A program made the position numbers and the translations under genes. This document shows positions 32,500 through 40,098 of a DNA stretch of 41,688 nt, piece by piece; the stretch's first letter is position 1; each line of letters opens with the position of its first letter. This DNA comes from an uncultured Agathobaculum sp. (GTDB taxonomy: Bacteria > Bacillota > Clostridia > Oscillospirales > Butyricicoccaceae), in assembly GCF_944380975.1 (NCBI RefSeq), contig NZ_CALWJK010000017.1:1-41688 (forward strand). The letters run 5' to 3'. The notes beneath the pieces were generated by a model, which did not search any database, had not been told where the DNA came from, and worked only from the letters and a program-made list of their open reading frames with translations.

Positions 32500-32548
32500 G
32501 CTTGCGTGGCTCAGTTGGTAGAGCAGCGCATTCGTAATGCGCTGGTCG
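32500..32548 (+). pseudogene. 5' half of tRNA-Thr(CGU), interrupted
   Basis: Acceptor 5' strand GCTTGCG, D-arm GCTC-AGTTGGTA-GAGC and anticodon arm GCGCA-TTCGTAA-TGCGC (anticodon CGT) are intact. Homology stops after TGGTCG, where the T-arm should begin. No matching CGCAAGC 3' end occurs in the rest of the window. This is best read as a host tRNA gene broken at the left junction of the island. Confidence 0.85.
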
Positions 32549-32658: not shown

Positions 32659-32733
32659 GCTAGTGTGGCTCAGAGGTAGAGCAGCTCACTCGTAATGAGC
32701 AGGTCGTGGGTTCGATTCCCACCACTAGCTCCA
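32659..32733 (+). tRNA. tRNA-Thr (anticodon CGU), intact copy
   Basis: A 75-nt cloverleaf. Acceptor GCTAGTG/CACTAGC, anticodon stem GCTCA/TGAGC with CGT at 32691-32693, T-arm GTGGG-TTCGATT-CCCAC, discriminator T and encoded CCA. It decodes ACG. It has the same anticodon as the broken gene 110 bases upstream but a different acceptor stem, so it is not a simple repair of it. It is probably brought by the island as compensation. Confidence 0.96.
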
Positions 32734-32767: not shown

Positions 32768-32799
32768 GTTGCCCATTTGGTCAACGTGGTCAACAGAAC

Positions 32800-32821
32800 T
32801 TTTGAAGATGTATCTTCAAAA
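32800..32821. repeat. TGTA-loop hairpin, copy 1
   Basis: Stem TTTTGAAGA/TCTTCAAAA (32800-32808/32813-32821) closes the loop TGTA. It lies between the tRNA-Thr terminator and the DUF6809 gene. There is no U-tract, so it is not a standard terminator. Its G-C pair replaces the A-T pair of copy 2. Confidence 0.75.
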
Positions 32822-32833
32822 ACTGGCCCTTGG

Positions 32834-34907: not shown

Positions 34908-34968
34908 TTTTAACTAAAAACAGACATATTGGACATAAATAATTTTTAATTAACATAAATGGAGACAT

Positions 34969-35963: not shown

Positions 35964-36001
35964 TTTTGTTCTTTTGAAAATGTATTTTCAAAAGAACAAA
36001 A
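35964..36001. repeat. TGTA-loop hairpin, copy 2
   Basis: A perfect 17-bp stem (35964-35980/35985-36001) closes the loop TGTA when read on the plus strand. The tip is TTTTGAAAA/TTTTCAAAA; the lower stem (TTTTGTTC/GAACAAAA) is private to this copy. It starts four bases past the stop codon of the minus-strand XRE gene, so it could act as that gene's 3' end, although the T-tail is missing. Confidence 0.8.
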
Positions 36002-38098: not shown

Positions 38099-38140
38099 AA
38101 GGTACTTATTTTGAAAGTGTATTTTCAAAATAAGTACCTT
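38099..38140. repeat. TGTA-loop hairpin, copy 3
   Basis: A 19-bp stem (38099-38117/38122-38140, one G-U pair) closes TGTA. The tip TTTTGAAAG/TTTTCAAAA is shared with copies 1 and 2; the lower stem (AAGGTACTTA) is different. It follows the decayed ORF. Confidence 0.8.
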
Positions 38141-38217: not shown

Positions 38218-38352
38218 GAAACAGTTTTAGGTCGCAATGAACATAAATAATTACTTTTATATAGCAGGACAGGTGTTTTACAGGATGGTTCGATTCCTCC
38301 TACTGCTTTTGCCCCTTGTGGGTAAACCAAATATTTTAAGGAGGAAACTGAT
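38218..38352 (+). ncRNA. Leader A with a tRNA T-arm/acceptor-like fold
   Basis: AGCAG (38263-38267) pairs with CTGCT (38303-38307). Between them a T-arm-like hairpin AGGA-(T)-GG / CCTCCT (38282-38288/38296-38301) carries the tRNA loop TTCGATT. TGAACATA (38238-38245) and a small CCC/GGG hairpin flank it. Leader B has the same parts in the same order. It ends in AAGGAGG for the next gene. It may be a cis-acting RNA or a decayed tRNA. Confidence 0.55.
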
Positions 38353-38754
38353 ATGGTAAATAATGAGATTTTTGAAGTTGAGAATGAGGAAGAGATTGAG
38401 GTGCTGGGTAAGTGTCCTATCTGTGGTAAGGTTTGTACTAAGGAAAATGATAATGAATTTACTCATGTTTATTTCTCTGAAACAGAAGACTATGAGTATG
38501 TGTGTGAAGATTGTAAAAAAAATAGTTGGTTTTGTGATTTTTGTGCAGAGTGCTATCCATGTATCAGACCTTCTAATGAGTTTGTTAGTCTGTGGGTATC
38601 AGAAGATGAAACTGTATGGATTTGCAAAGACATTGCTGATTCGTCTTATGAACAGTGTAGTAAGTGTGGTTGGTATTGTTATGAAGGTGTACTTTCAGAA
38701 GATGGCCTATGCCCTGACTGTGAATACGACAGGATTGAAGAAGAAAGAATTTGA
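38353..38754 (+). CDS. Multi-CxxC putative zinc protein, unknown function
   Basis: A 133-residue acidic protein with CxxC pairs CPIC, CEDC, CDFC plus a following AEC, CSKC with GWYC, and CPDC. They could hold two or three zinc ions in ribbon or treble-clef folds. There is no HTH, signal peptide or membrane segment. Not recognised. A perfect AAGGAGG site ends leader A. The next leader (B) starts right after its stop, suggesting the gene and its leader were once duplicated. Confidence 0.72.
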   Translation: MVNNEIFEVENEEEIEVLGKCPICGKVCTKENDNEFTHVYFSETEDYEYVCEDCKKNSWFCDFCAECYPCIRPSNEFVSLWVSEDETVWICKDIADSSYEQCSKCGWYCYEGVLSEDGLCPDCEYDRIEEERI

Positions 38755-38756
38755 TA

Positions 38757-38930
38757 GAAAATAGTTTTACGCTTATCTGAACATAGGTAAATTACCTCAA
38801 CGTGCAAAACTGGTGGAGCAGAATGGTTTTTTAGGTGGTTCGATTCCCCTACTGCTCATATCCACTTGTGGTAAGTGTTTTCCCTACTACTTGTGGATAA
38901 AAAATAATTTTTAGAAATGAGGTAATTGTT
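38757..38930 (+). ncRNA. Leader B, relative of leader A
   Basis: GAGCAG (38816-38821) pairs with CTGCTC (38852-38857), enclosing the T-arm-like hairpin AGG-(T)-GG / CCCCT (38833-38838/38846-38850) with loop TTCGATT. Both leaders keep the bulged T while the stem bases change. TGAACATA is at 38778-38785. Hairpin CCAC-TT-GTGG (38862-38871) follows. GGTGGAGCAG also resembles the D-arm of the tRNA-Thr, so descent from a tRNA is plausible. It leads to a truncated gene. Confidence 0.55.
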
Positions 38931-38954
38931 ATGTCGACAAATTCTAATATTTAG
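38931..38954 (+). pseudogene. Gene start cut off at the island edge
   Basis: GAGGT and seven bases precede ATG at 38931; the frame reads MSTNSNI and stops. Its leader is homologous to that of the zinc protein, so this is probably the 5' stub of a gene lost at the right junction. Confidence 0.45.
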
Positions 38955-39219: not shown

Positions 39220-39471
39220 ATGGATACTAACATGACATTTCGGATGGATAGTCAAACCAAGACCAGAATGACGGAGATTTGCGCTCAGCTAGGCATGACC
39301 ACCTCTACCGCCTTTAATATCTTCGCAAACGCCTTTGTACGAGCCAATGGTATGCCATTTGCTATAAAATTGGATTCTCCATCCTCCACGGTAACACGTG
39401 CACAAATGCTGTCCGATGCAGATGATATTTTAAGCGATTTCGCCCAGGATTACAAGAGGATGGCCGAATGA
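39220..39471 (+). CDS. RelB/DinJ-family antitoxin
   Basis: An 83-residue protein. The N-terminal ribbon-helix-helix (MTFRMDSQTKTRMTEICAQLGMTTSTAFNIFANAF) binds DNA, and the C-terminal tail is the toxin-binding part. The ATG at 39220 follows AAGGAGG; a second Met four codons on is possible. ATGA overlap with the toxin gene. Confidence 0.88.
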   Translation: MDTNMTFRMDSQTKTRMTEICAQLGMTTSTAFNIFANAFVRANGMPFAIKLDSPSSTVTRAQMLSDADDILSDFAQDYKRMAE

Positions 39472-39842
39472 TCTGGATTACAGTAGACGATGTAATTGCC
39501 ATCCATTCTCGCGTTGTTGAAAAAAGTGGTGGTTTGGATGGGCTACGCGACAGAGATATTCTGGAATCTGCTATCTCCGCACCGCTCCAATCCTTTGGCG
39601 GAACAGAGTTGTTCCCAACCGACCTTGAGAAAATTGCGAGACTTGGCTTTGGATTAGCAGCCAACCATGCGTTTTTAGACGGAAATAAGCGAATCGGAGC
39701 CATAATGGTGCAACTTCTGCTCAAATGGAATGGCTATACTCTCCAACTGCGGCAGGGTGAACTGGCAGATATGTTTATCGCCATTGCTGACGGTTCCGCA
39801 CAAGAGCAGGATTTGTTACAATGGATCAAACAGCACTTATAA
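39468..39842 (+). CDS. Doc-type (Fic fold) toxin
   Basis: A 124-residue protein. The Fic motif HAFLDGNKR is at 67-75. The NKR ending is of the Doc type, not the NGR of AMP-transferring Fic proteins. P1 Doc phosphorylates EF-Tu and stops translation; the same reaction is the best guess. The partner is a RelB/DinJ-type antitoxin instead of Phd. Length and start are standard. Confidence 0.9.
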   Translation: MIWITVDDVIAIHSRVVEKSGGLDGLRDRDILESAISAPLQSFGGTELFPTDLEKIARLGFGLAANHAFLDGNKRIGAIMVQLLLKWNGYTLQLRQGELADMFIAIADGSAQEQDLLQWIKQHL

Positions 39843-39907: not shown

Positions 39908-40098
39908 TTACAAGAAAATCATGTCCCCTGCTTTACACTGGCTGCATAACTTCCTTCATTTCTTTCCAAGCACAGACACAACGGACAGAGGATTGCATTA
40001 TACCATATCCTTTGTTATAACAAACTGTACATTAGGTAATAGACATTTTGTCGCAATCCCTCCATAATAAAAAAGATAAAAATATGGAGGTTTCTTAT
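39908..40098. other. Spacer before the recombinase remnant
   Basis: It contains the perfect palindrome TTTGTTATAACAAA (40011-40024). No gene. GGAGG at 40087-40091 serves the next reading frame. Confidence 0.5.

Follow-up and report, generated by a model that had tools for sequence, protein, structure and literature searches.

Folds that resemble tRNA, as well as the punctuation of transcripts by tRNAs, are already known kinds of element. Bacterial RNase P binds the stack of acceptor and T arm together with the elbow, the anticodon arm being dispensable, and RNase Z cuts the 3' ends of CCA-less tRNAs. The tRNA-like domain of tmRNA combines an acceptor, a stemless D loop and a T arm and has no anticodon arm, and the tRNA-like structures of plant mitochondrial mRNAs are called 't-elements'. 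In mitochondria, tRNA folds between the genes of a polycistronic transcript mark the places at which it is cut (Ojala 1981, as related in PMC3471875). For the plant mitochondrial orf291/RFL2 mRNA, the excerpted text of PMC5138203 suggests that a tRNA-like fold serves as a substrate of RNase P and that it needs a bound protein. Plant-virus tRNA-like structures are presented in the excerpted text of PMC9976931 as viral RNAs that mimic tRNA and can be charged with an amino acid.

Here we describe tRNA-like elements in two leaders, A and B, of a 41,688-nt window, which is the whole of contig C17 of a 2.34-Mb genome, and similar elements in phages and mobile elements. With mitochondrial punctuation they share a tRNA-like fold at gene boundaries, as found in the phages, the window elements each being a leader. 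They differ from it in that most have no anticodon arm, in belonging to phages and mobile elements, and in that cutting is what we infer from the fold. The plant mitochondrial cases also have a tRNA-like fold in an mRNA, but in plant mitochondria and with a fold suggested to depend on protein. tmRNA contains the same parts as the phage and island elements, which in contrast carry no tag reading frame or CCA, are much smaller and occur in many copies. Unlike the chargeable plant-virus structures, the elements lie internally in DNA-phage genomes, and the 3'-terminal CCA of a chargeable RNA is largely absent: none follows A or B directly in the sequence, and CCA stands at 74-76 in 2 of the 66 elements of the class.

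Architecture of leaders A and B

Each leader contains, on the forward strand, a mini-tRNA without anticodon arm, composed of an acceptor, a GG-containing D region and a T arm with a bulged U. Element A (38263..38307; recovered by pattern, descriptor and covariance model) has its acceptor at 38263-38269/38301-38307, its D region at 38270-38282 (CAGGTGTTTTACA) and its T arm at 38283-38300 with the loop at 38289-38295. Element B (38816..38857; descriptor and covariance model) has the acceptor at 38816-38822/38851-38857, the D region at 38823-38832 (ATGGTTTTTT) and the T arm at 38833-38850 with the loop at 38839-38845. Placed by tRNA geometry, the acceptors read AGCAGGA/TACTGCT in A (one G.A mismatch) and GAGCAGA/ACTGCTC in B (one A.A mismatch), and the D region, 13 nt in A and 10 nt in B, stands where a tRNA has its D arm and anticodon arm. 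The T stems, GGA[U]GG/CCUCC in A and AGG[U]GG/CCCCU in B, each form five pairs with one bulged U and close the loop TTCGATT. Relatives carrying these leaders were G029 (a Butyricicoccus MAG, contig NZ_CALWJM010000037.1) and G020 (a genome of the same genus).

The first-pass annotation had described A and B as sharing order and motifs, and all of these are present: TGAACATA (38238 for A, 38778 for B), the AGCAG strand, the T-arm hairpin with loop TTCGATT and a T bulged at an identical position in both, CTACTGCT, and a small hairpin. Its statement that the T stem differs while staying paired also holds, with two of five pairs changed on both sides between A and B; as each acceptor has one mismatch, 'fully paired' applies to the T stems and not to the acceptors. 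By folding, a hairpin (UUUGCCC/GGGUAAA, 38308..38326, +) lies directly 3' of element A and is kept with changes in G029, and a long hairpin (38859..38899, +) lies directly 3' of element B and is kept in G029 and G020. After the hairpin, each leader runs into a ribosome site and an ATG, in agreement with the annotation: AAGGAGGAA at 38338..38346 (+) and ATG at 38353 for A, and GAGG at 38919..38922 (+; sequence and folding) and ATG at 38931 for B. On the 5' side of leader A, the motif GAACATAAATA (38239..38249, +) may be part of an operator or promoter. The exact pattern GRACATAAATA has a second copy at 34931, upstream of the SprT-like gene (2 in the window versus 0.01 expected); a degenerate TGAACATAGGTA stands ahead of B at 38778 and a similar TGGACATAAATA ahead of the B of G020.

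A chance origin of the fold was ruled out by shuffling. A descriptor of the mini-tRNA shape matched the window twice on the forward and not at all on the reverse strand, compared to a shuffle mean of 0.02 per strand, and the pattern AGCAGN{5,30}GGTTCGATTCCN{0,6}CTGCT matched twice versus never in 100 shuffles. ARAGORN called neither A nor B as tRNA, and no Rfam family up to E 5, including tRNA (RF00005) and T-box, matched either of them, so that neither leader holds the model match that marks a T-box riboswitch. Taken feature by feature, A and B have in common with RF00005 the stack of acceptor and T arm with 7 + 5 pairs (one acceptor mismatch and one bulged U in each included), the T loop and the GG of the D loop, and differ from it in having no anticodon arm.

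Folding energy alone gave little support for the mini-tRNA fold. The isolated elements folded no better than shuffled sequences (z of -0.29 and -0.64), and z for the whole leader was +1.25 for A and -1.72 for B. The mini-tRNA of B is part of the minimum-energy fold of its leader. In the minimum-energy fold of A, the 3' strand of the T arm instead pairs to the ribosome site; this rival is better than the tRNA-like fold by 6.3 kcal/mol in the window and 5.4 kcal/mol in G029.

Possible masking of the ribosome site in leader A

Leader A may contain a switch that acts on its ribosome site. As a cis-acting translation switch, the leader would flip between the tRNA-like fold, which leaves the site free, and the pairing of T-arm strand and ribosome site, which closes it, without any cutting, the balance being set by a tRNA-binding protein or by the element's own folding. 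The strand concerned, UUCCUCCU (38294..38301, +), comprises the end of the T loop and the T-arm 3' strand and is the same in G029; the 8-nt complement UUCCUCCU/AGGAGGAA, present in the window and in G029, was the longest among 29 elements compared. In the whole leader, the ribosome site of A had an unpaired probability of 0.05 in the window and 0.25 in G029, which rose to 0.71 and 0.55 when the element was removed. As an account of the elements we nevertheless regard such a switch as unlikely, because it does not extend beyond leader A: the ribosome site of B showed none in three genomes (0.27, 0.39 and 0.63 unpaired with or without the element), the longest ribosome-site complement in 27 phage elements was 2-6 nt, and a clear ribosome site was not seen at the marine phage junctions described below. 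A stretch upstream in B, AATTACCTCA, had by eye seemed complementary to its ribosome site and was rejected, since it is absent from G029 and G020.

Conservation in related elements and position in the island

Element A is identical at 45 of 45 positions between the window and G029, whereas only 41 of 101 aligned columns agree in the DNA upstream. Across element B, identical positions are 39/42 (window-G029), 41/42 (window-G020) and 38/42 (G029-G020), compared to 55/80, 39/80 and 41/80, respectively, upstream of it. Given the low upstream identity, the conserved block starts near the 5' end of the element for A and for the comparisons of B with G020; between the window and G029, conservation of B extends upstream beyond the element. 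In total, two related elements carry A and three carry B. In G020, leader B and its gene lie behind SprT and the A cassette is absent. An intact 111-aa ORF follows leader B in both G029 and G020; in the window, a 7-codon ORF (38931..38954, +) takes this place and the sequence past the seven codons is unlike the 111-aa ORF, so that the gene behind leader B seems to have been lost. Compensatory changes occurred neither within A nor within B, only between the two. Loss of pairings in homologues, which the annotation had named as the observation that would speak against the fold, was confined to a single pair, an A.C in the T stem of G020's B. No DNA like leader A was found in plasmids or phages, and leader B gave one weak 33-nt match to phages (E 0.5).

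A second suggestion of the first-pass annotation, that A and B are tRNA-derived att scars, was not supported. The 5' part of a tRNA-Thr(CGT) gene (32500..32548, +) breaks off after the anticodon arm, and an intact tRNA-Thr follows at 32659; the broken 5' part is likely the integration (att) scar of the island, with the intact gene as a rescue copy, and is separate from A and B. The DUF6809, HTH, SLH and SprT-like genes lie 3' of both tRNA-Thr copies, followed by leaders A and B. An att remnant would be expected at the end of the element and in common to both ends, whereas A and B lie inside the island and precede homologous genes in the related elements; on position, homologues and conservation, we rejected scars of one tRNA. 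Descent from the island's tRNA-Thr was likewise rejected, as all that it has in common with A is a T-arm repeat of 18 nt at 83% (repeat D10) and the acceptors differ. The resemblance that the annotation saw between B and the tRNA-Thr D-arm (GGTGGAGCAG) does not extend to every letter in G020, where GTGTGGAGCAG stands instead.

Similar elements in phages and other genomes

The annotation had proposed a covariance-model search for further copies. Our model R1 was trained on phage elements only, six in number, with those of the window left out, and in 289 kb it recovered B (32.6 bits, E 2e-5) and, more weakly, A (21.6 bits, E 0.02); its only other match in the window was the T arm of tRNA-Thr (E 0.34). 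R1 was further run on genomes with stricter filters than in the other R1 scan and with the descriptor check on both strands. In 87 family genomes, the two best matches were the B elements of the window and G029, and those beyond the window, G029 and G020 comprised seven pieces of ARAGORN-called tRNA genes as well as L258 (tRNA-Arg-like by eye), L259 and L262 (both without descriptor match). A further same-family candidate, L252 (G085:C21:25351-25392, -), matches the descriptor, is not called as tRNA, scores 26.9 bits with R1, is GC-rich and ends in TCCA. In 391 class genomes, with 16 candidates scored per listed genome, R1 found only the window and one match without descriptor support.

In the viral collection, the AGCAG pattern matched 79 stretches, 64 of these loci having a match that ARAGORN did not call as tRNA. 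AGCAG itself was rejected as essential, because scans with ACGAG/CTCGT (13 stretches) and GACGA/TCGTC (15 stretches) also hold paired T stems among the non-tRNAs. The pattern fixes two T-stem pairs. Pooled over the three acceptor patterns, the distinct non-tRNA viral matches had at least three additional pairs in 50 of 63 cases; in genome_contigs this held for 5 of 38 distinct matches, a set in which many fall in open frames. A length of 12 nt from the loop to the acceptor end did not discriminate (27/63 viral and 13/38 genome matches) and was dropped as proof. After removal of near-duplicates and of elements whose D region exceeds 26 nt, 66 non-redundant elements remained, of which 62 had GG in the D region, a feature that the descriptor does not require; shuffling gave a mean of 39.3 and a maximum of 50. 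Element length in the class is about 38-57 nt. A 4-bp/7-nt hairpin in the D region was seen in 14 of 93 distinct non-tRNA descriptor matches (at least three of them D arms, some anticodon-arm-like), and absence of the anticodon arm is thus a rule with exceptions. Since the loci were picked by the T-arm pattern, descriptor counts within them are no survey. RF00005 reaches its threshold in some phage copies. The literature searched, whose coverage excludes most subscription-journal papers, yielded no description of such phage elements. Two MAG contigs also hold tRNA-like elements, three in L122 (Muribaculaceae) and two in L096 (Clostridia).

Placement at gene boundaries and paralogue sets

On the marine phage contig L043, four elements stand at gene junctions within 2.1 kb. 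Three of them overlap the upstream stop codon, with the next ATG 14-33 nt away; two of the four have the loop CTCGTTT/CTCGCTT, and one further gap of 14 nt has no element, if a 53-aa ORF is real. G736, G737, G738, G739 and G740, found via patterns common with L043, carry two to four elements each. In the marine junction set (11 elements, 10 distinct, out of 19 matches in that phage group), every pair is intact in every element and both partners vary in 6 of 12 pairs, a result reached in 0 of 500 shuffles. For 29 elements hand-chosen from covariance-model and later matches, the stop of an upstream ORF lay within 60 nt in 23 cases and an ATG-ORF was present within 130 nt in 26; among 600 random positions, the respective counts were 109 and 361. 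L205 has two elements, each ahead of an AGAGGTA-type ribosome site.

Several elements stand near capsid genes. In the T7-like marine phages L005, L079 and S-TIP37, an element lies 107-118 nt ahead of the major capsid gene, and S-SBP1 and S45-C4 show the same architecture with another loop. In L064, the element follows the major capsid gene by 15 nt, with the head-tail adaptor 197 nt further on, and in L020 it lies about 220 nt from each of the major capsid and head-tail adaptor genes; the element of L049 is 7 nt past a ssDNA-binding gene. In the T7-like cyanophage loci L221 and L236-L242, the interval from the hairpin to the major capsid gene contains a stretch that is conserved, GGCATTGGCCC..GGATACC..CCGTC..GACGGTGGGATAGACCACA; L023, which holds the start of the GGCATTGGCCC stretch, had no Rfam match.

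The largest set occurs in L009 (phage record G355, 180 kb; 135 kb sampled), with 19 elements on one strand within 60-75 kb and no descriptor match in ten shuffles per piece. Alignment of 15 of these paralogues (14 of the 19 plus one read by eye; two rows gap-shifted) revealed compensatory changes in 9 of 13 pairs, with a score of 0.488 versus 0.236 shuffled (0/500). The same region (G355:C1 ~60000-75000) encodes a 484-aa Cas12f/TnpB-like protein and contains repeats like GGTTCTGAACCTAGTTGAATTGACATAGGTGTAAGAC with spacers, and by eye also tracr-like stretches, several directly behind tRNA-like elements; judging from these features, L009 is possibly a natural tRNA-like/guide-RNA array.

Lactococcus 936 phages, in which 354 records match part of the element region, bear on whether the elements are non-functional tRNA genes in decay or att scars. 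Here, the elements stand in a row with real tRNAs (in Phi.16 ahead of the M5 gene). L056 holds a tRNA-Pro that misses most of its anticodon arm, and L247 and L029 hold tRNA-Asp-like copies without D arm; anticodon-arm-like letters are retained and the D arm is absent in L029, L042, L244, L245 and L247, as in tRNA decay, which the 936 group therefore shows too. The excerpted text of a 2018 paper on such phages (PMC6105707) reports no tRNAs in its set. The broken pair in G020's B would also fit decay. On the other hand, compensatory changes in the L009 and marine paralogue sets, the complete identity of A, the repeated gene-junction placement in L043 and its relatives, and the retention of leader B ahead of a homologous gene in G029 and G020 are hard to reconcile with it, and we consider decay or scars as a general explanation highly improbable. 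By comparison with the tRNA-Pro of L056, the elements in general may nonetheless descend from tRNA genes.

Proposed processing marks at gene boundaries

tRNA geometry, the D-region GG, the match to a phage-only model and conservation in relatives support the annotation's proposal that A and B are RNAs that imitate tRNA; for the 'regulatory' role that it assigned to them, our first choice is a processing mark. We put at just under an even chance the reading that elements of the A/B class mark gene boundaries for processing by RNase P and/or RNase Z. Phages and phage-like mobile elements would place tRNA-like elements, mostly lacking the anticodon arm, at gene boundaries; host RNase P would cut on the 5' side of the element and RNase Z, given that there is no CCA, on its 3' side. 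The transcript would be cut at the element and each gene would obtain an mRNA end of its own, which could alter the stability of the mRNAs. In the island, where the elements appear to be leaders and not spacers, the cut would set the 5' end of the mRNA, and in leader A it would also remove the strand able to mask the ribosome site and so free the site. As A lies 261 nt past the preceding ORF, and as about 720 nt separate SprT from B in G020, the phrase 'between genes' suits the phages better.

The proposed cutting follows from the parts that the element retains, the acceptor/T-arm stack with elbow, which are those recognised by RNase P and RNase Z. The bases at the ends gave weak signals. U at -1 and A at 73, which would be expected if enzymes of tRNA ends act here, were found in 27 and 32, respectively, of 49 loci (selected as for the GG count, except that a further 17 loci, kept in that count, were dropped manually because they are probably coding or pieces of tRNAs). 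These signals are clear only with the L009 and 936 copies, which are paralogues and not independent; when they were left out, each base was present in 13 of 27 (p 0.03 and 0.10).

Alternatively, the elements may form a stable tRNA-like knot and protect mRNA ends without cutting by RNase P or RNase Z, either by stopping exonucleases or by recruiting a T-arm/elbow-binding protein. Such a role would agree with the placement near capsid and ssDNA-binding genes and with the other stable hairpins found at the element's place in five of eight records of T7-like cyanophages. A hairpin within 5 nt 3' of the element was found in L009 (18/18, control 3.8) and in both window leaders; by contrast, 936 phages (4/26 versus 6.4) and the remaining phages (13/49 versus 10.5) were at control level. 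The rule that a hairpin always follows the element was accordingly dropped, being true only for L009, both L011 elements and the window group. A knot would also leave the retention of GG in the D region without explanation, and we think it improbable that this is what the elements do.

Returning to processing marks, a broader version appears plausible to us, though somewhat further from an even chance: an anticodon-arm-less tRNA mimic, cut by host RNase P and RNase Z, would serve as general punctuation in diverse phages and mobile elements and uncouple capsid and other strongly needed genes. The marks could arise from tRNA by arm loss, the cut in leader A would unmask its ribosome site, and the whole would be a prokaryotic counterpart of mitochondrial punctuation. 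If true, phages would process their mRNA with the tRNA-trimming enzymes of their hosts, some of the tRNA-like debris in phage genomes would be explained, and the tRNA punctuation of mitochondria would have a prokaryotic parallel that can be tested directly. These elements mostly escape the tools used here, as seen for both leaders with ARAGORN and Rfam.

Genes and repeats around the leaders

ORF A (38353..38754, +) encodes a cysteine-rich protein of 133 aa that is zinc-ribbon-like by eye; its protein had no match in Pfam and PHROG searches, and no relative was found in the phage collection. The homologue in G029 has 140 aa and 64% identity. A repeat family around TTTTGAAAATGTATTTTCAAAA occurs in the window at 32797-32824, 35969-35996, 38106-38133 and 38676-38703, with the fourth copy being weak and lying within ORF A; two copies stand in perfect inverted repeats, and similar stretches are present in G029 and G020. 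Further downstream, the gene of a RelB-like antitoxin precedes a Fic/Doc-like gene (39220-39842), and an N-terminal piece of an integrase lies at 40048.
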